This document shows positions 13,031 to 32,047 of a DNA stretch of 33,617 bases, piece by piece. This stretch comes from an uncultured Oscillospiraceae bacterium (GTDB lineage: Bacteria; Bacillota; Clostridia; Oscillospirales; Oscillospiraceae). A program made the position numbers and the translations under genes. How positions within the stretch are numbered: position 1 is the stretch's first letter; each line of letters starts with the position of its first letter. Under the pieces are notes generated by a model. It ran no database searches and was not told the origin of the DNA. It saw nothing but the letters and a program-made list of their open reading frames with translations. The stretch lies in contig CANRFC010000033.1 in NCBI GenBank assembly GCA_947629795.1, forward strand, positions 1 to 33,617, in the 5' to 3' direction.

Positions 13031-13056
13031 GCCGCCCTCCTGTGGTCATCGTCACC

Positions 13057-13098: not shown

Positions 13099-13146
13099 AG
13101 TTTATATGCCTGGGTCTTCGAAACGGGTCATCCTCCGAGGGCCTGC

Positions 13147-14466: not shown

Positions 14467-14566
14467 GTTCCAGATCTCCTTTCAAAATGGTGGTTCTCTC
14501 TATGGGATCGCCAGGGGTACGGAGCACTCTATTTCAGCGCCGCTGACCGCGGCGGCAGAAAACGGA

Positions 14567-15685
14567 TCAGTAGGCCCTCTTGATCAGGCGGGTGCTTTCG
14601 GCATTGTAGATGTTGATCTTCTCATGGGGGATGTGGATATAGACGGTCTGGTCCATATCGTAGCTGGTCAGGCCGATCTGCTTGGAGAGGAAATCGCTCT
14701 CGCCGGCCCGGAGAGACACCAGAGTCTCGGACCCTGCGAACTGGTTGGCGTAGACCTTCACCGCCAGGCTGTCCTCCACCGACTGGGTGGTGATCTGGAC
14801 CTGCTCAGGCCGGACGCCCAGCACGCAGGGGAAGACGCCCTCGGGAATGGGCTCGTCGGTCATGTCAGAGCCGGGGAAGACGTAGTCGCCCAGCTCGCTG
14901 GTGACATGGAGGTCTCCGCCCTTCATCTCGGCGGTGCCCTCCAGCAGGTTGATACGGGGGTTGCCGATGAAGTCGGCGGCCTGAAGGTCGATGGGATTCA
15001 TGTACAGCTCCAGGGGGGTGGCCACCTGGCTGAGCTCGCCGGCCTTAAAGAGGGCGATCTTGGTGGACATGGTCAGGGCCTCGGTCTGATCGTGGGTGAC
15101 GTAGATGACCGTGGTACCCAGCTCGTGGTGGATGCGCTGGAGCTCGGAGCGCATGTCGATACGCAGGCGGGCGTCCAGGTTGGACAGGGGCTCATCCAGC
15201 AGGAGGAGCTTGGGGTTGGAGGCCACGGCCCGGGCAATGGCCACCCGCTGCTGCTGGCCGCCGGAGAGCTCGTTGGGATAGCGGTCGATGTACTCCTGGA
15301 TGCGCATCATGCGCAGGGACTCCTGGAGGCGCTTCTCGATCTCCTCCTTGGGCAGCTTCTGGATCTTCAGGCCGAAGGAGATGTTCTCCCGCACCGTCAT
15401 GTGGGGCCACAGGGCGTAGGACTGGAAGACCAGGTTCAGTCCCCGCTTGCTGGGCTCGGCATAGTAGGCGGTCTCGGCGTTGATCATCTCCACGCCGTCA
15501 ATGGTCATGATGCCGTTCTGGGGCTTCTCCAGGCCGGAGACCACACGCAGGGTGGTGGTCTTGCCGCAGCCCGAGGGGCCCAGCAGAGTCATGAAGTCGC
15601 CGTCCTCGATGGTGAGGTTGATATCCCGCAGGACGTGGTTGTCGCCGTAGAATTTGTCGATATGTTTCAGTTCGATCTTACTCAT
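14567..15685 (-). CDS. ABC importer ATP-binding protein
   Basis: 372 residues. Walker [10 protein letters not shown] (~37-45), Q-loop in [14 protein letters not shown] signature [14 protein letters not shown], Walker [14 protein letters not shown] and switch His in VTHDQTEA are all intact. Residues ~240-372 form a TOBE-like regulatory domain, as in PotA/FbpC/UgpC ATPases. It drives uptake through the fused permease encoded 25 nt upstream. The start is supported by an AAGGAAGGGATG site. Confidence 0.93.
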
Positions 15686-15710
15686 ATTCGTTCATCCCTT
15701 CCTTTCTCTG

Positions 15711-17531
15711 TTACCAGGCCTTGCCGATGTCGGCACCGAAGCGGTTGGCGATGATGTAGCACACCAGAATGAACAGCAGCACGCACACGGAAATGGCGTC
15801 GGCCATCTGGTTGTAGCCCTCCTGGGAGTAGGTGAAAGCCAGGTAGGACATGGTCTGGGTGTGCTTATCCATCATGATGATGATCAGGTCCAGCTCCTTG
15901 GCGATGCTGATGAAGGTGAGCATGAAGCCGGAGATGAAGCCGTTCTTGGCCAGGGGGAGGACGATCTTACGCAGCTTCTGGAAGAAGCTGGCGCCGTTGA
16001 TCTCGGCGGCCTCCTCCAGCTCCACGGCGATCTGCATCATGTTGGCCTGGCCCGACCGGCTGGCGAAGGGGAAGTGCTTGACCACCGAGGTCAGGACGAT
16101 GAGGGTAAAGGTGCCGTACAGGGCGGGGATCAGGCCGCCCAGGCGGGGACGGTTGAACATGGCCACGTACATGGAGGAGAAGGCCACGCCGGACATCAGG
16201 TAGGGGATGAACACCAGCTGCTCGGTGAGGTTGCCGTACCACTTGCCCCGGCCGCGGGTGGCGATATAGCCCAGGAACTGGCCGCAGATGGCGGTGATGA
16301 TGGAGCCGATGGCGGTGAGACGGATGGTGTTGAACACGGCATTACCGAACTCCTTGTTCCGGAAAATGCCCTCCATAGAGGTGTAGACCTGGGCCTCATC
16401 CAGCGTGCCGATCCAGTTGTAGAGAGTCAGGTTGCTCAGGCCGTAGCCGTTGCCGGTGGTGACCTGGAAGGTCTCCATGATCAGCACGAACATGGGGGCC
16501 ACCATGGCGAAGAACAGGAAGACCACGATAAAGGCCATCAGGGGACCCTTGGCCTTGCCCAGGTGCATCTCGGTGGACCGGCCGCCCTTGCCGCCGATGG
16601 TGGCGTAGGACTTGCGCACGCCCACGATGCGCTGGTTGGCAAAGATGATGAGGGCGGCCAGGGCGATGAGGACCAGGCTCATGGCAAAGCCCACGGCCTG
16701 GGGTCCGCCGTTGATGAAGGTCTTCATCTTGGTGGCCAGGGTGAAATACCCGATACGGGAGCCCAGGTTAGCCGCCACGCCGTATGTACCGATGGACTTG
16801 CTCAGGGTCATGACGACGGCCGAGAGGATGCTGGGCATGACCAGAGGCAGCGTGATGGACTTGAGGATCTGGAGCTGGTTGGCGCCGCAGATGTCGCCCA
16901 TCTCCTCCAGCTCCGAGTTGATGGAGCGAAGAGCCGAGGAGACGTGGATATAGGAGAAAGCGTAATAGTGCAGGGACATACACAGCACGATGGCCACAGG
17001 GCCGTAGGCCAGCCAGTCGGGAATGGGGATGCCCATGCCGGCCAGGAAGCCCAGGGAGCCGGAGGTCTTGTTGCGGAACACGGCCAGCCAGCAAAGGGCT
17101 TTGCACCAGGAGGGGATCATGTAAGGGATGACCACCAGCATGCCGATGAGCTTTTTGCCGGGCAGGTCGGAACGGACCACCAGCCAGGCCAGGATGGAGC
17201 CCAGAGGCACCGAGACCAGCACGGTAAAGAAGCCGCATACCAGGGAGTTCTTCAGCGGGCCCCACAGGGTGGCCCCGGAGAGCTTGCCCACCAGAAGGTA
17301 CTTCCAATAGTACAGGGTAAAGTCGCCCACCTGACCTCCGATCCGCTTAATGTCGTCCCGGGCGGCGGTAAAGGTGGATGCGATCATCTGGAGCAGGGGG
17401 ATCACGATCAAGCAGAACAGAACTACCAGCGTGATAGCCACAATGATGTTGAACGGGTTCTTGACCACGTTCAGGACTTGGTTCTTCAGCCTCGTCTTGT
17501 TGAAGGGCCTGCGCCCTCTCTTCTCTTTCAC
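15711..17531 (-). CDS. Fused two-domain ABC importer permease (FbpB/AfuB type)
   Basis: 606 residues. The GTG at 17531 is preferred because GAAAGGAG precedes it by 7 nt; a longer in-frame extension runs back through the leader toward the promoter. After a basic N-terminus, two copies of the binding-protein-dependent permease fold follow. Their coupling EAA loops read EEMGDICGANQLQILKSITL and EEAAEINGASFFQKLRKIVL. Both halves in one chain are typical of Fe3+ transporters and of AfuABC-type hexose-phosphate importers. With the ATPase and binding protein it makes a full importer. Its nearness to the inositol operon (365 nt) makes a related substrate conceivable but unproven. Confidence 0.9.
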   Translation of the reverse strand: MKEKRGRRPFNKTRLKNQVLNVVKNPFNIIVAITLVVLFCLIVIPLLQMIASTFTAARDDIKRIGGQVGDFTLYYWKYLLVGKLSGATLWGPLKNSLVCGFFTVLVSVPLGSILAWLVVRSDLPGKKLIGMLVVIPYMIPSWCKALCWLAVFRNKTSGSLGFLAGMGIPIPDWLAYGPVAIVLCMSLHYYAFSYIHVSSALRSINSELEEMGDICGANQLQILKSITLPLVMPSILSAVVMTLSKSIGTYGVAANLGSRIGYFTLATKMKTFINGGPQAVGFAMSLVLIALAALIIFANQRIVGVRKSYATIGGKGGRSTEMHLGKAKGPLMAFIVVFLFFAMVAPMFVLIMETFQVTTGNGYGLSNLTLYNWIGTLDEAQVYTSMEGIFRNKEFGNAVFNTIRLTAIGSIITAICGQFLGYIATRGRGKWYGNLTEQLVFIPYLMSGVAFSSMYVAMFNRPRLGGLIPALYGTFTLIVLTSVVKHFPFASRSGQANMMQIAVELEEAAEINGASFFQKLRKIVLPLAKNGFISGFMLTFISIAKELDLIIIMMDKHTQTMSYLAFTYSQEGYNQMADAISVCVLLFILVCYIIANRFGADIGKAW

Positions 17532-17660
17532 AACATTACTCCTTTCTAAGGTTTCCTGTCCCCTTCTCCACTCCGGCCGCCATGGCGTGGCCGGAACCTC
17601 CCAGGGTGTGTCCGTTCTTCTTCCGAACACGTTTCCGCTCATCAATTTTTTACTGTTCAC

Positions 17661-17689
17661 ATTATACCAAGGCCCCACATTTTCGTCAA
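17661..17689 (-). promoter_or_regulatory. Sigma-A promoter of the ABC importer operon
   Basis: Minus-strand TTGACG (17689-17684), 17-nt spacer, perfect TATAAT (17666-17661). The leader to the GTG is about 120 nt and contains a GC-rich hairpin CCGGCC / GGCCGG near 17573-17594 without a T-run. The intergenic stretch 17532-17895 holds this promoter, the dyad next to it and the terminator of the iol operon; no gene is seen. Confidence 0.85.
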
Positions 17690-17701
17690 TGACTTTGGTC
17701 A
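17690..17701. promoter_or_regulatory. Possible operator dyad beside the ABC promoter
   Basis: TGAC-TTTG-GTCA, a 4+4+4 perfect dyad that abuts the -35 box. A bound repressor or activator here could control the importer. The dyad is short, so chance is possible. Confidence 0.35.
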
Positions 17702-17845
17702 TTTATGAATTTTTTTCGGCGGTTTTGCCTATTTCAGAAGTCCATTTCTTGTGAAAATGCACAAACATCTTCTTAGTGTCCGGGAATTTTCGAACGTTTT
17801 TCCCCTCCTCAGCGGATTTTATGCAAATGTTTCCGTAACAGTCAA

Positions 17846-17895: not shown

Positions 17896-18933
17896 TTATT
17901 TGTACAGCTCAGGCTTCTCCATGGTCTCCACCTTGCGGAACTGGGAGGTCCCCCGGGAGGCGTTCATGGCGTCACCGGCCACGCAGGCCACATAGCCGTC
18001 CCAGGCGGAGGGCCCGGTGAGCTTGCCGGCGAGCACCGACTGGACCCAGGCACACAGCTCGATGTCGTAGGCCTCGATGAAGCGCTCCTTCCAGTCGGTC
18101 ATGATGGGCATGCTCTCGGCGGGGTTCAGGCTGTCCCAGCCGGCGGGGCGGGAGCGGCGGACCACGGCGTAGGGGTCGGGCAGCTTCACCGTGCCGTTCT
18201 CACAGACCACCTCGCACTGGATATCGTAGCCGTAGCCGTCGGCCACCTGGACCTCCACGTCGATGAAGCAGCCCTTCTTGGTCCGCATGAGCATGACCTG
18301 GGGGTTGTCGTAACCCTTGGTGGAGTTGGCGCTCTGGCGGACCTTCACGCACTGGACGTCCTCATACTCGTCCCCCAGCAGCCAGCGGCAGATGTCCAGC
18401 TCGTGGATGGCCACGTTGGTCACGCCGTTCTCGGTCTTGAAGCCCGGGCCCTGGCTGACGTTGCGGTGGCAGGCCTTGATGACCAGAGGCGCGCCGATCT
18501 CCCCGGAGTCGATGATCCGCTTCATCTCGGCGTAACCCCGGTCATAGCGGCGCATGAAGCCCACCTGGACCAGCCGCTTGCCGATCTCCAGCTCCTTGTT
18601 GATGATCTCCTCGCAGTCCTTGCCGTTGAGAGAGAGGGGCTTTTCACAGAAGCACCACTTCTTCTCGGCCAGGGTCTTCATCACGTAGTCGTGATGGGTG
18701 GGGTCGATGGAGGTGATGACCACAGCCTCCACCTCGGGGTCCTTGATCATGCCGTCGCAATCGCTTCCGAAGGAGCGGATGCCGTACTTGGCGGCGGTCT
18801 CATCCGCGGCGGCGGGGACGTAGTCGGACACGGCCACCACCGTGGCGCCGGGGACGGTGTCCATGATGCGGCGGCAGTGGTCCTTGCCAATGGCGCCGCA
18901 GCCGATAATGCCGATTTTCAAAACCTTATCCAT
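17896..18933 (-). CDS. iolG: Inositol 2-dehydrogenase (Gfo/Idh/MocA family)
   Basis: 345 residues. It would oxidise myo-inositol to scyllo-inosose (2-keto-myo-inositol) with NAD+. Residues 8-19 are the Rossmann loop GIIGCGAIGKDH; EKP (97-99) carries the conserved Lys98. In NVAIHELDICRWL the His177 is kept, but the position four residues earlier, usually Asp in characterised IolG as I recall, is Asn173; this could shift substrate preference among inositol isomers. The neighbours iolD, iolB and iolE fix the pathway. AGGAAGGG precedes the ATG, 16 nt after iolD. It is the last gene of the operon, unlike operons led by iolG. Confidence 0.85.
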   Translation of the reverse strand: MDKVLKIGIIGCGAIGKDHCRRIMDTVPGATVVAVSDYVPAAADETAAKYGIRSFGSDCDGMIKDPEVEAVVITSIDPTHHDYVMKTLAEKKWCFCEKPLSLNGKDCEEIINKELEIGKRLVQVGFMRRYDRGYAEMKRIIDSGEIGAPLVIKACHRNVSQGPGFKTENGVTNVAIHELDICRWLLGDEYEDVQCVKVRQSANSTKGYDNPQVMLMRTKKGCFIDVEVQVADGYGYDIQCEVVCENGTVKLPDPYAVVRRSRPAGWDSLNPAESMPIMTDWKERFIEAYDIELCAWVQSVLAGKLTGPSAWDGYVACVAGDAMNASRGTSQFRKVETMEKPELYK

Positions 18934-18949
18934 GGAAAATCCCTTCCTT

Positions 18950-20881
18950 TTAATATTTTCTGGCGTCCTTCACGTGGGCCAGATGGTCCTGGTAGGCGGC
19001 AACGTTTTCAGGCCGCTCCGAGACCTCAGTGTCCCCCACCCGCCACCAGGAGCCGTAGCCGTCGGTCATGGTCTTGGGCAGGACCTTGATGTCGAAGAGC
19101 ACCGGGCGGTCCTTGATGGTCTTGGCCTCAGCCAGGGCGGCCTTGAGCTCGGCCAGGGTGCGGACGGAGTAGCTCTTGCAGCCGTAGGCCTCAGCCACCT
19201 TGGCGTAGTCGATGTCCAGGAACTTGCCGGAGAGCTTGCCGTCGGCGCCCCGCTCGCGCAGCTCTGTGCACAGGGTCAGGTTGCCGTGGCCCACCTGGAG
19301 GTTGTTGATGCAGCCGAAGCTGGCGTTATCAAAGACGCAGATGTTGACCTTCTTCCCCTCCTGGACGGCGGTGATGAGCTCGCCGTGGAGCATGTTGAAG
19401 CTGCCGTCGCCGCAGAAGGCGTAGACCTCGTGCCCGTCGCCGATGGCCAGCTTGACCCCCAGGGCGCCGGCCACCTCGTAGCCCATGGTGGAGTAGCCGT
19501 ACTCCATGTTGTAGGTGTCGATGCCGGTGGGGCGGAACATCCGCTGCATGTCGCCGGGAAGGCTCCCCGCCGCGCCGATAGCCACATCGCCGAGCTCCAT
19601 CAGGGCGTTGATGGCCCCCAGGGCGGTGGTCTGGCAGAGCTGGGCGTCCAGATCGTGGGCGAACTTCCTGGCCGAGGCGAAGTTGGCGTCGTTGATGATG
19701 GGCCGCCACTCCTCGGTGTCCTCGAACTCCACCCCGTCCAGGCGGATCAGCTCCTCCGCCCACTTCCGGCGGGCGGCCTCCACCTCACCCTGATAGGGGG
19801 CCTTGTACCCCTCCACCAGCCTGAGCAGCCGGGGCAGGGCGTCCTTGGCGTCGGCCACCACGGGAATGGCGTCCATTTTCAGGGCCTGGAATTCCGAGAC
19901 GTTGATGTTGATGAACTTACAGGTGTCCTTGAAGAGCCACTTGGAGGAGGTGGTGAAGTCGGTATACCGGGTGCCCACGCCGATGACCAGGTCGGCCTCC
20001 ACGGCGATCTCATTGGCGGCGGAGCAGCCGGTGACTCCCAGGCCGCCCAGGTTCAGGGGATGGGTCCACTCCACGGCGGACTTGCCCGCCTGGGTCTCTC
20101 CAAAGGGGATGCCGGTCTTCTCAGCGAACTCCCTGAACTCCTTATGGGCCTCGGAGTAGCGCACGCCGCCGCCACACACCAGCATGGGCTTCTTCGCCGC
20201 CTTGATGGCCGCGGCGGCCCGGGCCAGGGCGGCCTGGGTGGCAGGGCGGCGCTCCAGCCGCCACACCCGCTTGGCCAGGAAGCTCTCGGGGTAGTCATAG
20301 GCCTCCCCCTCCACGTCCTGGGGCATGGCCAGGCACACCGCGCCGGTGTTGGCCGGGTCGGTGAGGGTGCGGAAGGCGTTGATACAGGCGCTCATGAGCT
20401 GCTCGGGCCGGACGATGCGGTCCCAGTAGCGGCACACCGCCTTGAAGGCATCGTTGGTGGTGGTGGCCATGGAGTTGATGTGCTCCACCTGCTGGAGCAC
20501 CGGGTCGGGCTGGCGGCAGGCGTAGGTGTCGCCGGGGAGCACCAGCAGGGGGATATTATTGGCGGTGGCGGTGCCGCAGGCGGTGACCATGTTGGCCGCG
20601 CCGGGGCCGATGGAGGAGGTCACGGCAAAGATCTGCTTGCGCTTCATCTGCTTGGCGAAGGCCACGGCGGCCTGGGCCATGCCCTGCTCGTTCTTGCCCT
20701 GGTAGATCTCCAGGCGCTTGCCCTCCTGGGTCAGGGCCTGGCCCAGCCCCACCACGTTGCCGTGGCCGGGGATGATGAACACGCCCCGGACAAAGGGGGT
20801 CTCCACCCCGTCCACGTCGAGGTACTGATTCTCCAGGAAGCGGACCAGGGCCTGGGCCATGGTCAGTCGGACGGTTTTCAT
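18950..20881 (-). CDS. iolD: 3D-(3,5/4)-trihydroxycyclohexane-1,2-dione acylhydrolase
   Basis: 643 residues, full IolD length. This thiamine-diphosphate enzyme opens the ring of trihydroxycyclohexanedione to 5-deoxy-D-glucuronate. It has the acetolactate-synthase-like fold: an N-terminal PYR domain with VFIIPGHGNVVGLGQAL and TSSIGPGAANMVT, a central domain, and a PP domain with the TPP/Mg motif GDGSFNMLHGEL at 491 followed by VFDNASFGCINN. The ATG at 20881 shares its A with the iolB stop (TGATG) and has GGGGAGGAG upstream, so translation is probably coupled. Very similar in order and length to known IolD proteins. Confidence 0.96.
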   Translation of the reverse strand: MKTVRLTMAQALVRFLENQYLDVDGVETPFVRGVFIIPGHGNVVGLGQALTQEGKRLEIYQGKNEQGMAQAAVAFAKQMKRKQIFAVTSSIGPGAANMVTACGTATANNIPLLVLPGDTYACRQPDPVLQQVEHINSMATTTNDAFKAVCRYWDRIVRPEQLMSACINAFRTLTDPANTGAVCLAMPQDVEGEAYDYPESFLAKRVWRLERRPATQAALARAAAAIKAAKKPMLVCGGGVRYSEAHKEFREFAEKTGIPFGETQAGKSAVEWTHPLNLGGLGVTGCSAANEIAVEADLVIGVGTRYTDFTTSSKWLFKDTCKFININVSEFQALKMDAIPVVADAKDALPRLLRLVEGYKAPYQGEVEAARRKWAEELIRLDGVEFEDTEEWRPIINDANFASARKFAHDLDAQLCQTTALGAINALMELGDVAIGAAGSLPGDMQRMFRPTGIDTYNMEYGYSTMGYEVAGALGVKLAIGDGHEVYAFCGDGSFNMLHGELITAVQEGKKVNICVFDNASFGCINNLQVGHGNLTLCTELRERGADGKLSGKFLDIDYAKVAEAYGCKSYSVRTLAELKAALAEAKTIKDRPVLFDIKVLPKTMTDGYGSWWRVGDTEVSERPENVAAYQDHLAHVKDARKY

Positions 20882-21690
20882 CAGCTCTCCTCCCCCTTGA
20901 AAATATGGTCGTTGGCGTCGGCCTTCCAGAGCCACTCGTGCTCAGGGTCGTCGATGCGGGTCTTCTCCCAGGGGTCTCCCTCCAGGTGCCGGATGCCCCA
21001 GGCGTAGCACATAGCGTACCCAGGGGCGGCGGTCTGGGAGTGGAAGCCGCGGTTGATGACGGCCAGGCCGTTGTGCCCGGTCTGATAGATCTCCCCGTTG
21101 GCGAACCCGGCGCCAAAGCCCTGGGGATGGTCAAAGCGGTAGAAGTACACCTCGGGCTGGGGATGGTGATGGGGCGGATAGGAGGACCACTTCCCCGGGA
21201 AGTTCAGCACCTCCCCCAACACCATGTTGGAGAAGGGGGCGTTCTCGTAGTCGAAGAAGGTCTTGATCTCCCGGCGCATGCAGCCCATGAGCTCGCCCTG
21301 GGCCCCGGCGTGCTGGACCTGGACGGTCTCGGGGGTGTACATCACCGCCTCATAGGGATTTTCGTTGACGGTCTTCTGGATGTAGAGCTCGCTGTGGCTG
21401 TGGGCGGTGAGGACGATTTTGGTCCCCTTCCCCGCCAGCAGGCAGTAAGCCTCATAGCGGAAGCAGTCGGGGCGGCTGGCCTCCACGGTCTTGTCGTCCC
21501 ACTGGTAGGTGACGGAGCCGGCGAAAAGGAGCACGGCGGTCTCCTTTTCCTTCTCCTCGATGGTGAAGGTGTCTCCCTCCTCCATCACCAGCAGTCCCAC
21601 GTCCATCTGGGTGCCCATGTCGTCCACCGAAGCGTCGATATAGGCGTTGTAGCCCCGTTTGAGCTCCTCGTTCTTGTTAAAATAGCTCAT
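20881..21690 (-). CDS. iolB: 5-deoxy-glucuronate isomerase
   Basis: 269 residues. It converts 5-deoxy-D-glucuronate to 2-deoxy-5-keto-D-gluconate (DKG). It is a double-cupin protein; the metal site is seen in PPHHHPQPEVYFYRF (H174-H176, E180) with a further His in RGFHSQTAAPGY. Length and motifs match IolB throughout. It starts 9 nt after iolE and overlaps iolD by one base. DKG is the last product that the clearly recognisable iol genes of this operon can make. Confidence 0.96.
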   Translation of the reverse strand: MSYFNKNEELKRGYNAYIDASVDDMGTQMDVGLLVMEEGDTFTIEEKEKETAVLLFAGSVTYQWDDKTVEASRPDCFRYEAYCLLAGKGTKIVLTAHSHSELYIQKTVNENPYEAVMYTPETVQVQHAGAQGELMGCMRREIKTFFDYENAPFSNMVLGEVLNFPGKWSSYPPHHHPQPEVYFYRFDHPQGFGAGFANGEIYQTGHNGLAVINRGFHSQTAAPGYAMCYAWGIRHLEGDPWEKTRIDDPEHEWLWKADANDHIFKGEES

Positions 21691-21699
21691 GTCCTCACC

Positions 21700-22602
21700 T
21701 CACAGCCCGGTGTGCTCCCGGATGTACTTCCGGGCCTTCTGGGCGTACTCCAGGGGGTCGGCCTTGGCGGGGTCCTGCTCGGCCTCCACCAGCAGCCAGC
21801 CCTCATAGCCGGCCTGGGACAGGACCTCAAACACGGGGTCGAAGTCCACGTCCCCGTCGCCGGGGACGGTGAAGGCCCCGTTGCGCACCGCCTGGAGGAA
21901 AGACCAGTTGTTCTTCCGGGCCTCCTCCACCACAGGAAGGCGCATATCCTTGAGGTGGACATGGCCGATGCGGTCCACGTACTTCTTCAGCATGGCCAGG
22001 GGGTCCTCCCCGGCAAAGGTGAAATGGCCGGTGTCATAGCACAGGAAGACATACCGGGGATCGGTGCTGGCCATCATCCGGTCGGTCTCGTCGGCGGTCT
22101 GGACCACGGTACCCATGTGGTGGTGGAAGCAGAGCTTGAAGCCCCGGTCGGCGGCCACCTTGCCCAGCTTGTTCAGCCCGTCGCAGAAGCGGTCCCACTC
22201 GCCGTCGTCCATCACGTGCTTGTGGCCCCCGGTGAGGATGGGGGTATCCACCTGGCCCTGGATGCTGTAACTCTGCTCGCTGACGTTGATGCGGTCGGCC
22301 CCCACGGCGTGGAGGAACTCCAGTTCCCTGATAAAGTCGGCCTCCACCTGCTCGTAGGGCTGGGTGAGCAGGAAGGAGGAGAACCACCGGCTGGCGATGC
22401 GCATCCCCCGCAGGTCCAGCTGAGCCTTGAGCTCAGCGGGGTCGGAGGGGTACTTGTTGCCGATCTCACAGCCGGTAAAGCCGGCCAGGGCCATCTCGCT
22501 GACGGTCTGCTTGAAGGTGTTCTCAGCTCCCAGTTCGGGCATATCGTCGTTGCACCAGCCGATGGGAGCGATGCCCAGTTTCACTTTGTTGGGATCAAAC
22601 AT
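21700..22602 (-). CDS. iolE: Myo-inosose-2 dehydratase
   Basis: 300 residues. It removes water from scyllo-inosose to give 3D-(3,5/4)-trihydroxycyclohexane-1,2-dione. It is a TIM-barrel of the xylose-isomerase-like class with metal/active-site segments IAPIGWCNDDMPELG (11-25), CFHHHMGTVVQT (159-169), CYDTGHF (188-194) and HVHLKDMR (214-221). The ATG at 22602 is the family start; a longer frame runs upstream into the larA 3' end. An AAAGGAG site lies upstream. Gap of 34 nt after the LarA-like gene is the widest in the operon but has no terminator. Confidence 0.94.
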   Translation of the reverse strand: MFDPNKVKLGIAPIGWCNDDMPELGAENTFKQTVSEMALAGFTGCEIGNKYPSDPAELKAQLDLRGMRIASRWFSSFLLTQPYEQVEADFIRELEFLHAVGADRINVSEQSYSIQGQVDTPILTGGHKHVMDDGEWDRFCDGLNKLGKVAADRGFKLCFHHHMGTVVQTADETDRMMASTDPRYVFLCYDTGHFTFAGEDPLAMLKKYVDRIGHVHLKDMRLPVVEEARKNNWSFLQAVRNGAFTVPGDGDVDFDPVFEVLSQAGYEGWLLVEAEQDPAKADPLEYAQKARKYIREHTGL

Positions 22603-22636
22603 GAAAGAAACAACTCCTTTTTTATCCGTATCTCGC

Positions 22637-23887
22637 TCAGCCCGCGATCCAGGGCAGCGTGGAGCCGCCGTAGGGCATGGAGAGCACCGAGGCGTCCGCC
22701 CCCAGCTCCTCAAAGGCCCTGTCCAGGGCGGTCTGGGCGTCAGGCATGGGCTTGAGGAAGATGGAGCGGACAAAGTCGGGCTCCATCTCCGAGACCAGCC
22801 ACACCTGGGCCTTCTCCAGGGTCATGGCGATGGCGGCTGCCTTGTGGCCCCCCAGCTGGAAGTCCCGGCCGATACGCTCGATCATGGCCTGGGGGGACTC
22901 CGACTGGGTCATCCACTCCTCGAAGACCCGCTCCCCCATCCCCTCCTTGCAGGAGCCGATGAGGATGATGATGCCCCCCTGGCGCACGGCGTGGCGGGCG
23001 TTGTCCAGGGCCTTCTGGGTCTGGTAGAGGTTCATGTCCTTGGGGGCGCCCCCCTGGCTGACCAGCACGATGTCCGCCGGGTGGGGCAGTTCCTTGCGGT
23101 AGAGGGTGTCCAGGAAGGCGCAGCCCGCCCGGTGGGCCTTCACCGCGTCTCCCGCCACCGCCCGGAGGATCTCCTTGTGCTCGCTGAGGACCACATTGAC
23201 GATGAAGTCGATGCCGCAGATGGCCCCGGCCTCCTCGATGTCCATGCGCACGGGATTGTCCTCCAGATCGCCCGCCCGGGCCTCGGGACGGACCATCATG
23301 GAGTGGTTGGACTGGATGGCGTCCCGGGTAGAGACCCCGGGCATGATGGCCTTGGCCCCGCCGGAGTAGCCGGCGAAGTAGTGGTACTCGATGTTGCCCA
23401 GGCAGATGCGGCGGTCGGCCTCGGCCACCACCCGCACGATGTCCACCGGGGTGCCCTTCTTTGTGGTGCCCATGTGGACGCAGTCGGCGGTGTCGCCGTC
23501 CACGCAGGCGATCTCAGCAAAGGCCCGCTCCCCCGCCAGCTTCCGGCGCTCCTCGTCGGTGTGCTTGCGGTGAGAGCCCAGGGCGAAGACCAGGGTGATA
23601 TCCTCCGGGGCGCACCCGGCGGCGTAGAGCTCGTCCAGAAGGGCGGGCATCACCTTGTAGGTGGGCATGGGCCGGGTGATGTCGCTGGTGACGATGGCGA
23701 TCTTCTCCCCCGGCTTTACGATCTCCCTCAGACGGGGGGAGCCGATGGGCTCGGCCAGGGCCCGGCGGACCTCGGCCTCGCCGGTGAGCCCGACTTTCAC
23801 CTCATTGGCGTGGAGCTCCCCCATCAGGTTCTTCTCCGGGACCTCCACCTCTTGGGTAGAGGTCCCGAAACCAAAGCACAGCTTCAT
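22637..23887 (-). CDS. LarA-type nickel-pincer racemase/epimerase, possible malate racemase
   Basis: 416 residues. It has the full set of LarA catalytic landmarks: SDITRP (68-73), His106 in ALGSHRKHT, His169 in EYHYFAGYSGGAK, Lys179 that would hold the nickel-pincer nucleotide, and His195 in SNHSMM. These line up with H108, H174, K184 and H200 of Lactobacillus lactate racemase. LarA homologues racemise or epimerise 2-hydroxy acids; lactate and malate racemases are among those known. The cofactor-making larB, larC and larE genes are not in the window. The gene sits 3 nt after the transketolase subunit and before iolE, so its substrate should be a hydroxy acid formed by this operon; D-malate is proposed. 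Substrate is inference. Confidence 0.85.
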   Translation of the reverse strand: MKLCFGFGTSTQEVEVPEKNLMGELHANEVKVGLTGEAEVRRALAEPIGSPRLREIVKPGEKIAIVTSDITRPMPTYKVMPALLDELYAAGCAPEDITLVFALGSHRKHTDEERRKLAGERAFAEIACVDGDTADCVHMGTTKKGTPVDIVRVVAEADRRICLGNIEYHYFAGYSGGAKAIMPGVSTRDAIQSNHSMMVRPEARAGDLEDNPVRMDIEEAGAICGIDFIVNVVLSEHKEILRAVAGDAVKAHRAGCAFLDTLYRKELPHPADIVLVSQGGAPKDMNLYQTQKALDNARHAVRQGGIIILIGSCKEGMGERVFEEWMTQSESPQAMIERIGRDFQLGGHKAAAIAMTLEKAQVWLVSEMEPDFVRSIFLKPMPDAQTALDRAFEELGADASVLSMPYGGSTLPWIAG

Positions 23888-23890
23888 GGC

Positions 23891-24853
23891 TCAGCCCTTC
23901 CTGGCCAGCACGGCCTTGGCCTGGCTCACCACGTGCTCGGCGGTGAGGCCGAAGCGCTCCTGGAGATAGCCCTGGGGGCCCACCTCGCCGAACTCGTCCT
24001 CCACGGCCACACAGGCGGCGGGGACGGGGCACTTCTCAGCCAGGACCTCCAGGACGGCGGAGTAGAGCCCGCCGTGGCGGCTGTGATTCTCGCACACCAC
24101 CGCCGCGCCGGTCTTCCTGGCCCAGCTCTCCACGGCCTCAGCGTCCAGGGGCTTGACGGTGAAGCAGTCCACCACCGCGGCCTGGATGCCCTCCTGGGCC
24201 AGAGTCTCAGCGGCCTTCATGGCCTCGTGGACCATGATGCCCGAGGCGAAGAGCACGATGTCGCTCCCCTCCCGGAGGGTCACCGCCTTGCCGATGGGCA
24301 GGTCGCTTCCGTCGGCGTAGACCTTGGCGTACTGCTTCCGGCCCACCCGGATGTACTTCACCCCGGGGCGGTCCACGCACTGGCGCAGCACGCTCTTGAG
24401 GCAGTTGGGGTCGGTGACGTCAATGACGGTGGCGGTGGGGATGGTGCGGTAGAGGGCCATGTCCTCAAAGGGCATATGGGTGCCGCCGTTCATAGTGGCG
24501 GTAACGCCGGGGTCGGTGCCGATAACGGTGATGTCGTTCTTGGCGTAGCCGGCGCTCAGAAACACCTGGTCGAAGCACCGCCGGGAGGCGAAGGGCCCGA
24601 AGGTGTGCACGATGGGCTTAAAGCCCGCGCTGGCCAGACCGCAGGCCACACCCACCATATTGGCCTCGGCGATGCCGCAGTCGATAGCCCTGGCGGGGTT
24701 GTTCTTGGCGTACTTCCCGGTGCCGATGCAGGCCATCAGGTCGGCATCCAGATAGACCACATTGGGGTCTTCCTCCAGGATGGCGGGGATCTCCTCCCCC
24801 AGCACCGCCTTGCACAGGCGGGGATCCAGTTCTCCATTGTATACGATTTCCAT
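23891..24853 (-). CDS. Transketolase C-terminal subunit (split type, divergent active site)
   Basis: 320 residues covering the PYR and C-terminal domains of a two-polypeptide transketolase. The TPP-activating glutamate is Glu63 in DCGIAEANMVGVA. In the stretch equivalent to THDSIGxGEDGPTH of ordinary transketolase this protein reads TDPGVTATMNGGTH (113-126): the first His, a substrate-phosphate contact in yeast transketolase as I recall, is Asp114, and the Asp of EDG, which contacts the donor hydroxyls, is Asn122; the last His (126) is kept. This suggests a donor other than a normal sugar phosphate. The gene starts 3 nt after the N-subunit and ends 3 nt before the LarA homologue. Confidence 0.88.
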   Translation of the reverse strand: MEIVYNGELDPRLCKAVLGEEIPAILEEDPNVVYLDADLMACIGTGKYAKNNPARAIDCGIAEANMVGVACGLASAGFKPIVHTFGPFASRRCFDQVFLSAGYAKNDITVIGTDPGVTATMNGGTHMPFEDMALYRTIPTATVIDVTDPNCLKSVLRQCVDRPGVKYIRVGRKQYAKVYADGSDLPIGKAVTLREGSDIVLFASGIMVHEAMKAAETLAQEGIQAAVVDCFTVKPLDAEAVESWARKTGAAVVCENHSRHGGLYSAVLEVLAEKCPVPAACVAVEDEFGEVGPQGYLQERFGLTAEHVVSQAKAVLARKG

Positions 24854-24856
24854 GCT

Positions 24857-25699
24857 TCAGCCCTCCAGTTCAGCCAGCTCGGCCTTCAGCTGAGCGGTCC
24901 ATCTTTCATACTGCTCGTCGCTTACCGGCAGGCTGTGATTCATCACGGTGTCGGCCACCTCCTGCACGCCAAAGCCCTTCACGGTGTCCATGACGATGGC
25001 GAAGGGCTTGCCCTTCCCCTCCCGGGTGCGCTCCAGGGCCGCAGCCAGGGCAGAGACGTCGTTGCCGTTGACCAGCACGGTGTCAAAGCCAAAGCTCTCG
25101 AACTTGGCCACATAGTCGCCCATGGGATAGACGTCATCGGCCCAGCCGTCCAGCTGCTTCTTGTTCCAGTCCAGCAGGAGCACCAGGTTGTCCAGCCCCT
25201 TGGCGGCGGCAAAGGAGCAGGCCTCCCAGACCTGGCCCTCGTCGCTCTCGCCGTCTCCCACGATGAGGAAGGTCCGGCTCTTGTAGCCCCGGAGCTTGTC
25301 GCCCATGGCCATGCCGCAGGCCAGAGAGGTCCCCTGACCCAGAGACCCGGTGGTCATGTCCACGCCGGGGGTCTTGTTCCTGTCGCAGTGGCTGGGCAGC
25401 CGGGTGCCGGGATGATTCAGGGTCTTCAGCTCCTCATAGGGGAAATACCCCTTCAGAGCCAGGGTGCCGTACACGGCGGGGCCGGCGTGGCCCTTGGAGC
25501 ACACCAGCTTGTCCCGGTCCGGCTTCCTGGGGTCGGCGGGGTCAATGTCCATCTCCCGGCCATAGAGGACAGCCAGCACGTCGGCGATGCTCAGCGCCCC
25601 GCCGATGTGTCCCGAGCCGATGGAATGGATGGCCTCGATGGCCGCCATGCGGATCTGGACGGCGAAGGCCTTCAGCTCTCTCACTTCACGCTCTTCCAT
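24857..25699 (-). CDS. Transketolase N-terminal subunit (split type)
   Basis: 280 residues, the thiamine-diphosphate (PP) domain. Core residues are present: His31 in GSGHIGGALS, SKGHAGPAVY (His71), GSLGQG (118-123), and the TPP/Mg motif GDGESDEG (148-155) with Asn179. The start at 25699 is preferred because AGGAG lies 8 nt upstream; an ATG seven codons earlier overlaps the pgk stop (ATGA) but lacks a ribosome site. With the next gene it makes one enzyme that moves a two-carbon ketol unit from a ketose to an aldose. Its position inside an inositol operon points to DKG as donor (inferred). Confidence 0.9.
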   Translation of the reverse strand: MEEREVRELKAFAVQIRMAAIEAIHSIGSGHIGGALSIADVLAVLYGREMDIDPADPRKPDRDKLVCSKGHAGPAVYGTLALKGYFPYEELKTLNHPGTRLPSHCDRNKTPGVDMTTGSLGQGTSLACGMAMGDKLRGYKSRTFLIVGDGESDEGQVWEACSFAAAKGLDNLVLLLDWNKKQLDGWADDVYPMGDYVAKFESFGFDTVLVNGNDVSALAAALERTREGKGKPFAIVMDTVKGFGVQEVADTVMNHSLPVSDEQYERWTAQLKAELAELEG

Positions 25700-25716
25700 A
25701 TTCTTCACTCCTTCTT

Positions 25717-26967
25717 TCATTTGGAGACCTCCGCCCCATGGCGGAGGGCCTTGACCACCGGCAGCTCCTCTCCGCTCAAAAAGCGGATGAGGGCGCCGCC
25801 GCCGGTGCAGATATAGCCCATCTTGTCGGTCAGTCCGTACTTTTCGGTGGCGGTGATGCTGTCTCCGCCGCCCAGGACGGTAAAGCCCCCGGTGTCGGCC
25901 AGGGCCTGCCAGATCTCCTTGGTGCCGTACTCGCTGGGCGCCTGCTCAAAGACCCCCATGGGCCCGTTGACGAAGACCGTTTTTGCCCCCAGGATGACCT
26001 CCCGGTAGAGCTTGACGCTCTTGTGGCCGATGTCGATGGCCCCGATGTCGCCGGGCACGGCGCCCAGTTCGGCCTCCTGCCGCTCCCCGTCGGTCACCCA
26101 GGCCAGGTCCACCGGCAGCACGATCTTCTCCCCGTACTGCCCGTAGAGCTCCCTGGCCCGGTCGATGTACTCGCCGTAGTTGGACTTCAAAATGAAGTCC
26201 ACGCTCCCCTTTCCGATCTCCTTGCCCAGGGCGGTGAGGAAGATGTTGCCCACCAGTCCGCCGGTGAGGATGGTGTCGGCCACCCCCCGGCTGAGCACGG
26301 TGTTCATCATCAGGAAGGCATCGGAGATCTTGGCCCCGCCCAGGACGAACACACAGGGCCGGTCGGGCTCCTCCATCACCTGGGACACGGTGCAGTACTC
26401 CTTCTCGAAGAGCCGGCCCATGTAGGAGGGCAGCACCTGCTCGAAGCCGCACAGGGAGGGCTGGTCCCGGTGGGCGGCGGCAAAGGCGTCGCACACGTAG
26501 AGGTCGGCCAGGGGGGAGAGTTTCTCCACCAGCAAGGTCCTGGCCTGCTGCTCATGGGTCAGCCGCAGCTTCTGCTCGAAGAGGGTCTGCTCCTCCGAGA
26601 CGAAGCGCACATTGTCCAGCAGCAGGATCTCCCCGTCCTTCAGGGCCTGGATGGCCTCCCGGGCGGCGGGACCGCACACGTCGTCGATCCACTTCACCTC
26701 CCGGCCCAGCAGCTCGGTGAGCACCGCGGCGTGGGGCTTGGTGGTGTAGAAATTCTTGTACTCGATATCGCTGCCCTGATGGGCCAGGAGGACCACTCTG
26801 GCCCCCTTGTCGGACAGCTCCTTCACCGTGGGCACACAGGCCTTGATGCGGTTGACGCTCTTCAGCGTCCCCTTCTCCCGGTCCACCGGCTGGTTGATAT
26901 CCACCCGGCACAGCACGGTCTTTCCCGCCACCTGGGCCTCGTCCAGGGTCCTGATACCAAATCGCAT
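25717..26967 (-). CDS. Archaeal-type phosphoglycerate kinase homologue with altered substrate site
   Basis: 416 residues. Nucleotide-side motifs are normal: GGAKISDA (211-218), NGPMGVFE (334-341) and the GGGDS loop (366-370). The substrate side looks like archaeal PGK (RVDINQPVD, AFAAAHRDQPS) rather than the bacterial RVDFNVPL form. Asp23, Asn25, Arg40, Arg121 and Arg167 are kept. The HxxR motif (HLGRP or archaeal HQ.RP) is His63-Gln-Gly-Ser66: the arginine that binds the 3-phosphate of 3-phosphoglycerate is gone. An ATP-forming acyl-phosphate kinase acting on a non-phosphorylated analogue (malyl phosphate) is proposed. It follows the GAPDH homologue by 15 nt. It could still be an ordinary glycolytic PGK, but a catabolic paralogue is more likely. 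Confidence 0.85.
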   Translation of the reverse strand: MRFGIRTLDEAQVAGKTVLCRVDINQPVDREKGTLKSVNRIKACVPTVKELSDKGARVVLLAHQGSDIEYKNFYTTKPHAAVLTELLGREVKWIDDVCGPAAREAIQALKDGEILLLDNVRFVSEEQTLFEQKLRLTHEQQARTLLVEKLSPLADLYVCDAFAAAHRDQPSLCGFEQVLPSYMGRLFEKEYCTVSQVMEEPDRPCVFVLGGAKISDAFLMMNTVLSRGVADTILTGGLVGNIFLTALGKEIGKGSVDFILKSNYGEYIDRARELYGQYGEKIVLPVDLAWVTDGERQEAELGAVPGDIGAIDIGHKSVKLYREVILGAKTVFVNGPMGVFEQAPSEYGTKEIWQALADTGGFTVLGGGDSITATEKYGLTDKMGYICTGGGALIRFLSGEELPVVKALRHGAEVSK

Positions 26968-26982
26968 ATCGGGTCTCCCCTC

Positions 26983-28044
26983 TTACTGCTTCTTGAAGCG
27001 GCCGATCTTCAGATACTTGTTGGTCATGGCGGTGCCCTCTTCCCGGGTGAGCTGCATCTTCATGGCGGCCCGGATGGCGTCCATGGTCTCGGGGATGGTC
27101 ACGCTCTCCTGGGGGATGTGGATGGCGTACATGATGTCGTCGCCGCTCTCCACGATGGAGTCCTCCCAAAGGCCGATCTCATACAGGTCGCCCCGGCGGT
27201 TGCCCAGGTCACGGCCGTACTTGAAGAAGGAGGCGTTGCCCTGGAAGCCCTCGTCGATGGTGACGGTGCGGATGCGGGGATGGGCCCGGAAGGCAGCCAG
27301 GGCCTCGTCCCGGGTGATCTTGTGGCCGTTCTTGCCCCGGGCCAGCACGGTGATGATGTGGCCGTGGGTCACGGGAGTATGGACCAGGATGCCGGTGGCC
27401 TCCACGTGGGGCATGATGGTCATCAGGTCCACCGCCTGGTGAGAGGGGGCCTTGTCGATCTGCAGGGCGTTGGTCAGGCCCCGGTGATAGTCGCCGGGAT
27501 CGGCCACCCGGCGGATGATGGTGATGGCCACCTTCTCCACCCCGCCGCAGGCCCGATCCAGGCAGTCCACGGTGCGGATGAGGCCGGTGGTGTTGCAGGA
27601 GGTGAGCTTCAGGTAGTTCTGGCCCAGCCCCTTCTCATAGTTGGCGTAGCCGTGGAAGAACACGTCGGCCACGGTGTTCTTCTCGCCGCCCTGGAAGATG
27701 GCCTTCACCCCCAGCTTCTCGTAGATGACCTTGTTCTTGGCGCCCACGCCGCCGGGGGCGGAGTCCAGCATGATGTCCACGCTCCTGCACAGGTCCTCGA
27801 AGGAGCCGGCCACGGGAATGCCCTTGGCGTCAAAGGCGGCCTTGTCGGCGCCGTCCACCAGATAGAGGTCATACTTCACGCCGTTGGCCCCGATCATGTC
27901 GTTCTCGGCCAGGGCGCGCACCGCCAGGGTGGGAGCCAGGTCGGCAATGCCCACCAGCTCCATGTCCTCCTGCATGGCCACGCCGTCGGCCAGCCGCTGC
28001 CCGATGGTGCCGTACCCAGCCACGCCTACTCTTACCTTTGCCAT
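26983..28044 (-). CDS. Type II (archaeal-type) glyceraldehyde-3-phosphate dehydrogenase homologue
   Basis: 353 residues. NAD(P)-binding GYGTIG at 10-15, catalytic Cys150 in LTSCNTTGL, and the C-terminal region ending IGRFKKQ all match the archaeal class II GAPDH family, not the usual bacterial GapA (no SCTTN). The substrate-side segments differ from what I recall of archaeal enzymes: RRVADPGDYHRGLTNALQ where those have RRAADP..KKGP.NAI, and PSHQAVDLM where they have PSHHGPDV. This suggests a different aldehyde; malic semialdehyde is proposed. It is the first gene of the nine-gene operon, with TTAGGAGGAA before the ATG and its own promoter and operators. Product would be an acyl phosphate used by the next gene's kinase. 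Confidence 0.85.
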   Translation of the reverse strand: MAKVRVGVAGYGTIGQRLADGVAMQEDMELVGIADLAPTLAVRALAENDMIGANGVKYDLYLVDGADKAAFDAKGIPVAGSFEDLCRSVDIMLDSAPGGVGAKNKVIYEKLGVKAIFQGGEKNTVADVFFHGYANYEKGLGQNYLKLTSCNTTGLIRTVDCLDRACGGVEKVAITIIRRVADPGDYHRGLTNALQIDKAPSHQAVDLMTIMPHVEATGILVHTPVTHGHIITVLARGKNGHKITRDEALAAFRAHPRIRTVTIDEGFQGNASFFKYGRDLGNRRGDLYEIGLWEDSIVESGDDIMYAIHIPQESVTIPETMDAIRAAMKMQLTREEGTAMTNKYLKIGRFKKQ

Positions 28045-28112: not shown

Positions 28113-28141
28113 ATTGTACCATTCCTCCAATAAATTGTCAA
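28113..28141 (-). promoter_or_regulatory. Sigma-A promoter of the inositol operon
   Basis: Minus-strand TTGACA (28141-28136), 17-nt spacer, TACAAT (28118-28113). The -35 box lies inside the palindrome AAATTG-T-CAATTT, a likely repressor site. Confidence 0.88.
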
Positions 28142-28279: not shown

Positions 28280-29041
28280 ATGCGGGACAAGCGGAGAAAA
28301 GAGATGGCGGCCTATATCGCCCGCCGACAGTCGGCCACCATGGAGGAGCTGCGGGAGGTCTTCCATGTGTCCATGAACACCGTCCGCTCCGACGTCCACG
28401 CGCTGGTCCACACCGGTGCGGTGGAGAAGGTCTACGGCGGGGTCCGCTCCGCCGTCCGTCAGGAGGTCCCCTTGTTCACCCAGCGGGACTCCACCCACAC
28501 CGGAGCCAAGGAGCGCATCGCCCGCCTGGCCGAGACCCGCATCGCCGACGGCGACACGGTCTATCTGGACGCCGGCACCACCACCCTCCGGCTCCTGGAG
28601 TGCCTGGACCCGGCCAAGCACGTCACCGTCATCTCGGGCAACCTGGCGGCGGCCGGCCCGGCCTACAACCTCCCCCGGGTGGAGCTCATCGTCCTGCCGG
28701 GGCTGATGAACCGGCGGACCAATTCGGCCGCCGACGTGAGCACCCTGGAGTTCCTGGGCCGCTACCGCTGCGCCAAGGCGTTTTTGGGGGCCTCCGGGGT
28801 CTCCCCCGACGGCAAGCTCAACGTCTCCTCCTATATCGAATATGAGCTGAAAAAACTGGTCCTCCAGCAGAGCTCCCACACCTACCTGCTGGTGGACTCG
28901 GGGAAGTTCGGCGGCGAGAGCCTCATGTCCTACGGCTCCCTGTCCGACGTGGACGAGGTCATCTCCGACGCCGGCTGTCCCCCCGCCGTCCGGGAATTCT
29001 GCGCCCTCCGCGGCGTGAAGCTCACCCTCACCGAAACCTGA
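28280..29041 (+). CDS. DeoR-family transcriptional regulator, probable regulator of the inositol operon
   Basis: 253 residues. Residues ~1-55 form the winged helix-turn-helix (MEELREVFHVSMNTVRSDVH, GAVEKVYGGV). Residues ~75-235 are the DeoRC sugar-phosphate sensor domain with DAGTTT, SGNLAAAG and YLLVDSGKFG. Members such as IolR of Bacillus repress inositol genes until a phosphorylated intermediate binds. If the operon makes no phosphorylated DKG, the inducer here may differ, for example a pentose phosphate. GGGAGG precedes the ATG. It is divergent from the nine-gene operon and 55 nt ahead of the PHP gene, likely co-transcribed. Confidence 0.92.
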   Translation: MRDKRRKEMAAYIARRQSATMEELREVFHVSMNTVRSDVHALVHTGAVEKVYGGVRSAVRQEVPLFTQRDSTHTGAKERIARLAETRIADGDTVYLDAGTTTLRLLECLDPAKHVTVISGNLAAAGPAYNLPRVELIVLPGLMNRRTNSAADVSTLEFLGRYRCAKAFLGASGVSPDGKLNVSSYIEYELKKLVLQQSSHTYLLVDSGKFGGESLMSYGSLSDVDEVISDAGCPPAVREFCALRGVKLTLTET

Positions 29042-29096
29042 CGTGCCATTCCCGCCCGCTCCGGGCAGGCCAATATCACACAACGGAGGAATCGCC

Positions 29097-29762
29097 ATGC
29101 ATAAGATCGAGACCCATCTCCACACCAATCACGTGAGCAAATGCGGCTGGCTGGACGCCGAAGCTCTGATCAAGGGCTACCAGGACGCGGGTTACAGCGG
29201 CATCATCGTTACCGATCACTATAACCGCATCACCTTCGACTACCTGGGCATCGACCCCGCCGCCCCGGTGGACCGGGTGGGGCCCTTCCTGGAGGGCTAC
29301 CGCCGGATGAAGGAACTGGGGGAAAAGGTGGGCATCCACGTCTTCAAGGGGGCCGAGCTCCGCTTTGACGAGAGCGAGAACGACTACCTCCTCTACGGCT
29401 GGCGGGACGACCTGCTGGCCGACCCGGAATCCATCTTCCGCATGGGCATCGCCGCCTTCTATCCCCTGGCCCACGCCGCCGGGGCCACCCTCATCCAGGC
29501 CCACCCCTACCGGGCCAAGTGCACCCCGGCCATCGCCTGCTACCTGGACGGAGTGGAGGTGCGCAACCTCAACCCCCGCCACGACAGCCACAATCGCCGG
29601 GCCCAGGAATACGCCAGGCAGTTCGGCCTCATCGCCACCAGCGGCTCGGACTGCCACCGCACCGAGGACATCGCCCTGGGGGGCATCCTGTCCAAGACCC
29701 TCCCCAGCGACTCCATGGGCATGGCCCGTCTCATCCGCTCCCGGAACTATACTCTTCTCTGA
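29097..29762 (+). CDS. PHP-domain metal-dependent phosphoesterase-like protein
   Basis: 221 residues; the ATG at 29097 follows ACGGAGGA and begins MHKIETHLHTNHVSKCGW, the PHP motif I HxHT. Further metal ligands lie in IIVTDHYN, FKGAELRFDE, IQAHPYR and SGSDCHRTEDIALGG. PHP proteins are usually phosphoesterases (histidinol phosphatase and relatives) with two or three metals. Substrate unknown; being co-transcribed with the inositol regulator suggests a role with inositol phosphates or sugar phosphates (inference). Downstream, 29763-30020 carries no gene: it is T/C-rich, with a weak GC hairpin near 29901-29931 and two copies of GAGTTCCAAAA (around 29935 and 29957). Confidence 0.82.
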   Translation: MHKIETHLHTNHVSKCGWLDAEALIKGYQDAGYSGIIVTDHYNRITFDYLGIDPAAPVDRVGPFLEGYRRMKELGEKVGIHVFKGAELRFDESENDYLLYGWRDDLLADPESIFRMGIAAFYPLAHAAGATLIQAHPYRAKCTPAIACYLDGVEVRNLNPRHDSHNRRAQEYARQFGLIATSGSDCHRTEDIALGGILSKTLPSDSMGMARLIRSRNYTLL

Positions 29763-31969: not shown

Positions 31970-31993
31970 CAGGCAGTCTCTCCTTCTCTTCGC

Positions 31994-32031: not shown

Positions 32032-32047
32032 ATGTGGTCATTGGAAG

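Follow-up and report, generated by a model that had tools for sequence, protein, structure and literature searches.

What becomes of 2-deoxy-5-keto-D-gluconate (DKG) in a bacterium that encodes the enzymes to make it from myo-inositol and in whose genome no kinase for it is recognized? The question is raised by a 33,617-nucleotide contig from an uncultured Oscillospiraceae bacterium (CANRFC010000033.1, positions 1 to 33,617, of GenBank assembly GCA_947629795.1), the whole of which is called the window here. The host genome comprises 2.86 Mb in 83 contigs and is 98.6% complete. An earlier note on this DNA, made from the letters alone, had described a single operon that joins iolG, iolE, iolD, and iolB to a split transketolase, a type II GAPDH, a PGK, and a LarA racemase. 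That observation is confirmed, and all nine genes occupy the positions given in the note. Read along the minus strand, from 28044 down to 17896, they are as follows.

26983..28044, minus strand: type II (archaeal-type) GAPDH homolog, proposed to be a phosphorylating (R)-malic semialdehyde dehydrogenase (NF003251, 385 bits; cut-off, 185)
25717..26967, minus strand: PGK homolog, proposed to be a D-malyl-phosphate kinase forming ATP (PF00162, 391 bits; Arg65 replaced by Ser)
24857..25720, minus strand: N half of transketolase (TktN), thiamine pyrophosphate domain (PF00456, 4.7e-48)
23891..24853, minus strand: C half of transketolase (TktC), Pyr and C domains (PF02779, PF02780; closest solved relative, the split transketolase 6yaj)
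22637..23887, minus strand: LarA, nickel-dependent malate racemase, LarAH6 family (NF052593, 580.9 bits; cut-off, 500; best solved match, Mar2 6d6z)
21700..22602, minus strand: IolE, inosose dehydratase (TIGR04379, 410 bits; cut-off, 290)
20881..21690, minus strand: IolB, 5-deoxy-glucuronate isomerase (PF04962, 3.3e-47; TIGR04378, 91.7 bits, below the cut-off of 205)
18950..20935, minus strand: IolD, trihydroxycyclohexane-dione hydrolase (TIGR04377, 870.8 bits; cut-off, 715)
17896..18933, minus strand: IolG-type inositol dehydrogenase (NF052679, 366 bits, below the cut-off of 540; Pfam GFO_IDH_MocA over its cut-off)

The genes are tightly packed, with intergenic distances, in order, of 15, -4, 3, 3, 34, 9, -55, and 16 bp. 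The largest of these, the 34 bp between larA and iolE, presupposes a corrected start for IolE: the longer listed open reading frame begins within larA, and the likely start follows an AAAGGAG site. The operon thus contains the IolG/IolE/IolD/IolB quartet of the classical iol pathway, of which IolB and IolG fall under their NCBIfam cut-offs yet above those of Pfam. This gene arrangement is not a product of chance, because it recurs in dozens of genomes.

We think it probable, reading from the gene families and their context, that the operon carries DKG to malate with formation of ATP by way of the transketolase, GAPDH, PGK, and LarA homologs. IolG, IolE, IolD, and IolB would convert myo-inositol to DKG. 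The split transketolase would then move the C2 ketol unit of DKG to a sugar-phosphate acceptor, for example glyceraldehyde 3-phosphate to give xylulose 5-phosphate, leaving (R)-malic semialdehyde. The type II GAPDH homolog would convert the semialdehyde and phosphate to D-malyl 1-phosphate with the production of NADH, the PGK homolog would use D-malyl 1-phosphate and ADP to make D-malate and ATP, and the racemase would turn D-malate into L-malate, which a malic enzyme, encoded in the operon of many relatives, could take to pyruvate. We infer every reaction from DKG onward, as well as the identity of the acceptor. Viewed from C6, DKG is CH2OH-CO-CHOH-CHOH-CH2-COO, with the D-threo configuration of xylulose 5-phosphate, and the aldehyde remaining after removal of the ketol unit has the configuration of D-glyceraldehyde 3-phosphate. 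Since oxidation of that semialdehyde gives (R)-malate, a racemase is needed before an enzyme of L-malate can act. These configurations were derived by hand, and the stereochemical argument of the earlier note, in which DKG is D-threo and a racemase is required, holds when redone in this way. Dedicated copies of three enzymes of sugar metabolism appear to use carboxylates that resemble the phosphates on which such enzymes usually act.

Two enzymes of the classical branch that would otherwise dispose of DKG are not recognized in the host. The best candidate for IolC, the DKG kinase, reaches 158.6 bits against a cut-off of 300, and there is no match to IolA, the malonate semialdehyde dehydrogenase (MMSDH), at an E value of 0.001. 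A PfkB gene in the window (31085-32041) was considered as a hidden IolC and rejected, as it scores only 21.9 of the 300 bits. Across 398 genomes of the phylum, IolD is over its cut-off in 18, and all 15 genomes with IolC over its cut-off are found within those 18. The three IolD genomes lacking IolC (G000, G051, and G236) are exactly the three IolD genomes that have the cassette, and the matches to the cassette GAPDH include no genome with IolC over its cut-off. A correspondence of this kind among 18 genomes would arise by chance once in 816, and the three genomes belong to different families. With a cassette genome defined as one that has the cassette GAPDH, IolC is over its cut-off in none of 26 such genomes. 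At the cassette locus, 19 of the 26 carry Iol genes; a few, such as G280 and the genome of locus L082, have no LarA or Iol genes there. The comparison depends on curated cut-offs: kinases scoring below them occur in 24 of the 26, the best at 233 bits (G051), a level that is also reached in genomes without IolD. MMSDH is over its cut-off in 1 of 12 cassette genomes (G278). The mutual exclusion across the 18 IolD genomes is observed directly, and it supports the view that the cassette takes the place of IolC in these bacteria.

The cassette is widespread. The search of the 398 genomes identified eight others with a GAPDH 60 to 80% identical to that of the window, and PGK adjoins GAPDH in all eight, with LarA nearby in seven. 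The LarA of one locus (L032) is encoded on the opposite strand and shares only 36% identity. Transketolase and iol genes are present in two of the eight loci (L029 and L030), and a malic enzyme gene adjoins larA in three (L027, L028, and L030). For a broader view, a collection of species genomes was found to contain 444 relatives of the cassette GAPDH, of which we kept the 80 best. Many of these loci lie on short contigs, so gene counts were restricted to 42 loci that extend 8 kb or more downstream. The counts are of best BLAST hits to window or related proteins at an E value of 1e-8, so that divergent genes are missed, and the count for LarA accepts either of two LarA references. On this basis, PGK is found in 40 of the 42 long loci, LarA in 37, at least one of IolD, IolE, and IolB in 37, both transketolase halves in 29, and malic enzyme in 23; in 27 of the 37 long loci bearing iol genes, TktC stands beside them. 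The neighborhood search proposed in the earlier note thus finds the cassette genes together in both samples, and the suggested passage of L-malate onward to pyruvate gains from the malic enzymes beside the racemase. Among the best 80, the nearest cassettes show 93% GAPDH identity and come from metagenome genomes labeled Angelakisella or Clostridia, so that a clostridial anaerobe of the gut is a likely host. The labels include Clostridia, four Spirochaetes, and one Synergistaceae record, a mixture that suggests the cassette may be mobile, with the reservation that bins can be mislabeled. Many carry the names of rumen or gut samples.

If the GAPDH and PGK homologs act on a C4 acid, their active sites might be expected to show it (residue numbers for these proteins and for transketolase are carried over through alignments). 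The 89 aligned cassette GAPDHs all keep the equivalents of Cys140 and His219, which we take to be the catalytic residues, together with those of Arg167, Arg168, and His193. In all 89, His194 is replaced by Gln, the residue being His in three archaeal chains compared, and in 88 of the 89, Lys33 is replaced by Asp, presumably a mark of NAD preference, which suggests that the cassette GAPDH would prefer NAD over NADP. In PGK, seven residues of the 3-phosphoglycerate site (R21, D23, N25, R38, H62, R122, and R170) are unchanged in 77 of 77 cassette proteins, and Arg65 is replaced in every one (Ser in 71, Gly in 4, and Asp in 2). The same position is Lys in the housekeeping PGK of the host and Arg or Lys in each of the five solved PGKs shown. 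Arg65, Arg122, and Arg170 are described in PMC7729029 as holding the 3-phosphate, so that the window PGK retains two of the three phosphate arginines, with Ser for the other. The loss of one could fit a carboxymethyl group in place of a phosphoryloxymethyl group. The cassette pair is additional to a housekeeping pair encoded elsewhere: every one of the 12 cassette genomes examined, that of the host among them, encodes a separate type I GAPDH, and a second PGK elsewhere in the host genome scores better, at 506 versus 391 bits.

The transketolase halves are altered as well. His461, Asp469, and Arg520 are residues that we take to have roles in the transketolase pocket. Of the canonical set, Glu411, His473, and Arg520 are kept in all 50 cassette TktC proteins, Asp469 is Asn in all 50, and His461 is replaced by Asp in 48 and by Tyr in 2 (L031 and L032); the window protein has the Asp/Asn pair. 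Both His461 and Asp469 are retained in the solved split enzyme and in human transketolase. Mutations at these two sites are reported in PMC3657141 to change the use of acceptors. As a specific mark of DKG, the pocket changes were considered and lost force: the same Asp/Asn pair is also found in split transketolases outside the cassette, so that the changes mark specialized transketolases and not DKG. A separate observation concerns G410, the genome of locus L099, which has 19 matches to Transket_pyr, many of them split and with varied pocket residues; this set suggests many specialized sugar-acid routes.

LarA exceeds the cut-off of the LarAH6 malate racemase family, its best solved match is the malate racemase Mar2 (6d6z; E value of 6.4e-121, 407 bits), and the next solved match, a lactate racemase, follows at 222 bits. 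Lactate racemase as its function was rejected, the score of 342.7 bits being under the cut-off of 460. Six of seven cassette LarA proteins scored pass the LarAH6 cut-off, the seventh being a partial match below it. According to PMC7583248, Mar2 racemizes malate with a Km of 0.38 mM, and its Gln293 and Lys351 are tied to substrate binding; by alignment the window LarA keeps both. The earlier proposal of a LarA-type racemase acting on malate is in this respect upheld. The Mar2 loop residue Lys173 is Phe in the window LarA; the group 6 signature given in PMC7583248 includes a Phe, which may be the residue at this position.

Several observations weigh against the route from DKG to malate. G236 is 75% complete, the other two cassette genomes lacking IolC being about 99% complete. 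The window operon includes no malic enzyme. The change of His461 to Asp offers no obvious way to welcome an anionic substrate, and the 12 split homologs outside the cassette are diverse, with 3 keeping His461 and Asp469, 2 (both from G410) sharing the Asp/Asn pair, and 7 having other combinations. Arg65 of PGK is also credited in PMC7729029 with aiding domain closure. The cofactor of LarA poses a further difficulty. The cofactor-making genes with which the earlier note would have assayed LarA are missing from the picture, as neither LarC nor LarE was found in the host genome; of 28 cassette genomes examined for LarC, 18 have it, and of 12 examined for LarE, 7 do, these also being the seven with LarC. 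Possible explanations are that the host scavenges the nickel-pincer (NPN) cofactor, that its assembly has a gap, or that LarA is not in use. As an addition to the proposed route, LarA could be idle in the window host, which could not make the cofactor and would use D-malate directly or excrete it. We consider this unlikely, though less so than the alternatives below: the larA frame is intact and its product scores over the family cut-off, gaps are possible in a genome of 83 contigs, and three of the genomes with near cassettes (G398, G399, and G402, and not G408) have LarC.

Another alternative is that GAPDH, PGK, and transketolase are extra ordinary copies for glycolysis and the pentose phosphate pathway, serving triose phosphate from an unlinked IolC-IolJ-IolA branch, with LarA handling other malate. 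These are central enzymes, and no transketolase other than that of the cassette was found in the host, so that an additional pentose phosphate role is possible for it; the other Transket_pyr match, tried as a second transketolase, is DXS (640 bits; cut-off, 466). A phosphoglycerate mutase-like gene, present in 25 of the 80 loci, would also fit a lower-glycolysis reading. A part in plain glycolysis was set aside as less likely for this mutase, which is circularly permuted and located beside HAD phosphatases, with an unpermuted mutase over its cut-off in 9 of 10 genomes examined. The lack of IolC over its cut-off in all 26 cassette genomes, the lack of an MMSDH match in the host, the mutual exclusion of cassette and IolC, the housekeeping GAPDH in 12 of 12 genomes, and the loss of Arg65 in 77 of 77 PGKs all speak against ordinary copies, which would leave no place for a malate racemase and a malic enzyme, and we judge this alternative very improbable. 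Equally slight are the prospects of a reading in which the proposed steps after malic semialdehyde stand and the semialdehyde arises from DKG through an enzyme other than TktNC, or without passage of the ketol unit to a sugar phosphate (oxidative cleavage, for example). The unusual pocket residues would be at home in it, in 10 of the 37 long iol loci neither half of a transketolase is close by, and in L027 the core adjoins a set of PDH-like E1, E2, and E3 genes. TktC nevertheless stands beside the Iol genes in most such loci, Glu411, His473, and Arg520 are kept throughout, and the sulfo-TK route is a close precedent. The route from DKG to malate through TktNC is the one we prefer; most of the testable genomic predictions of the earlier note were borne out, with one failure, that of the cofactor genes LarC and LarE, and its interpretation is supported at the genomic level.

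The variants of the cassette indicate which part of it is constant: GAPDH-II, PGK, malate racemase, and often malic enzyme. This core persists where the feeding enzymes differ. In L031 (12893-13888, 553 bits) and L084 (7987-9108, 268 bits), an IolN gene (cut-off, 245) stands beside the core and transketolase; a C4 acid is likely the end product there, perhaps tartrate, and malate racemases are reported in PMC11770544 to epimerize tartrate as well. In L027 (4803-18094), where no iol genes were seen, the core and malic enzyme lie beside the PDH-like E1/E2/E3 genes and molybdenum-hydroxylase-like genes, and the PDH-like set is a possible further source of malic semialdehyde. Other genes recur around the cassette. 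A circularly permuted 2,3-bisphosphoglycerate-independent phosphoglycerate mutase (L060:7348-8913, L149:1646-3208, and L150:12569-14128; also on host contig C22) is the gene counted above in 25 loci, and the first part of the L060 protein aligns to positions 213-504 of the profile. Directly before it are four tandem HAD phosphatases of about 250 amino acids (L060:4251-7341, L149:3221-6229, and L150:9512-12576), those of L060 being 27 to 49% identical to one another; they would perhaps dephosphorylate inositol phosphates stepwise. A wider reading, plausible and held tentatively, is that GAPDH-II, PGK, malate racemase, and malic enzyme make up a portable shadow of lower glycolysis for C4 acid aldehydes with several feeders, accompanied by an island for the uptake and processing of inositol phosphates. 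The feeders could be DKG via transketolase, an IolN route (with tartaric semialdehyde and tartrate possible), and the PDH-like E1/E2/E3. In many rumen and gut Clostridia, the core shares this island with the HAD phosphatases and the permuted mutase, which would strip phosphates from inositol phosphates and shuffle them within the cell; an ATP-binding cassette (ABC) importer is in the same island in one examined genome.

The regions flanking the window operon contain the following features.

28113..28141, minus strand: sigma-70-like promoter, TTGACA-17-TACAAT, upstream of the operon (11 of 12 positions match; a consensus match only)
28280..29041, plus strand: DeoR/GlpR-type regulator, divergent from the operon (relatives in 14 of 80 related loci)
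13147..17702, minus strand: ABC importer and a protein without family match (relatives of all three proteins after the iol genes in L150)
15711-17702, minus strand: fused ABC permease, part of the importer downstream of the iol genes
14567-15685, minus strand: ABC ATPase, part of the importer downstream of the iol genes
13147-14466, minus strand: protein without family match, possibly a binding protein, beside the ABC importer

The scan gave five promoter-like sites versus 1.3 expected, and no terminator-like site was found between 17600 and 28400, versus 7.5 expected. The ABC permease lies 193 bp past iolG, the last gene of the operon. Within 10712-17702, after the iol genes, are the importer, which is of a phosphonate/polyamine-like type, the 13147-14466 protein, an MBL-fold protein, and a HAD phosphatase; in L150, all of these except the MBL-fold protein have relatives that likewise follow the iol genes. 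Uptake of inositol phosphates is a conceivable function for this region of the window. On the other side of the operon, a PHP-domain protein (29043-29762) is possibly a phosphoesterase; 27 of 80 cassette loci encode a relative of it. A membrane pyrophosphatase gene (32088-33617) continues to the edge of the window.

The gene content, families, synteny, and altered active-site residues described here are direct observations, and one class of iolBDE clusters without iolC finds a biological explanation in the cassette. Phytate-derived inositol is abundant in the rumen and gut. If the proposal is correct, there is a further route for inositol beside the classical and Thermotoga types, one that would gain ATP by substrate-level phosphorylation, whereas the classical route spends ATP on DKG. 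It would also give malate racemase a natural role and mean that GAPDH and PGK had been recruited to a nonphosphorylated substrate. Glycolytic enzymes working on a carboxylate analog are a mechanistic feature that we did not meet in the open-access literature on this question. No inositol route via transketolase, malate racemase, or malic semialdehyde came up in the searches made of that literature, and a description elsewhere is possible. Term searches within a gut-inositol review, an iol survey (PMC9430895), and a phytate paper gave no occurrence of transketolase, and PMC12130570, PMC5808187, and PMC13234733 have no bearing on the route. For that large survey, iolC is one of the core genes and essential to the breakdown of inositol; it suggests incomplete sequences, assembly errors, or frameshifts as possible causes when the fourth core gene is missing.

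Comparison with known systems brings out what is shared and what would be new. In the classical iol pathway (IolG-E-D-B-C-J-A), DKG is phosphorylated with ATP and cleaved by an aldolase, and the end products are dihydroxyacetone phosphate and acetyl-CoA. The first four enzymes, as far as DKG, are the same here, and the difference begins with the host, in which no IolC over its cut-off and no MMSDH were found: no ATP would be spent on phosphorylating DKG, no aldolase would cleave it, and malate would be the end product. The Thermotoga-type route (IolG-IolM-IolN-IolO) proceeds to 5-keto-L-gluconate and not to DKG. What links it to the present system is that in L031 and L084 IolN accompanies the core described here, whereas IolN is absent from the nine genes of the window operon. 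Mar2 (LarAH6) belongs to the same family as the window LarA and has the same key substrate residues. Its malate substrate was assigned by assay, as reported in PMC7583248 and PMC11770544, in the main texts of which the words inositol and transketolase are absent. Carnitine degradation, as described in PMC11353897, also passes through malic semialdehyde to malate, the semialdehyde coming from carnitine and not via a transketolase. A close mechanistic likeness is to the sulfo-TK pathway of sulfoquinovose degradation, in which SqwGH is a characterized transketolase that acts on a sulfonated sugar and transfers the ketol unit to glyceraldehyde 3-phosphate (PMC9594981). Both systems have a split transketolase, and both would place an anionic group where the sugar substrate of the transketolase usually has its phosphate. 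They differ in that the proposed substrate here is a carboxylate, in that the leftover aldehyde would be oxidized with a gain of ATP instead of being isomerized and cleaved again, and in that no sulfoquinovose genes are present, by family, among the nine of the operon. Finally, lower glycolysis uses the same GAPDH and PGK families, in the same order and with the same stereochemistry; the window system differs from it in having a type II GAPDH in a bacterium and a PGK without Arg65, both of them additional to the housekeeping pair.

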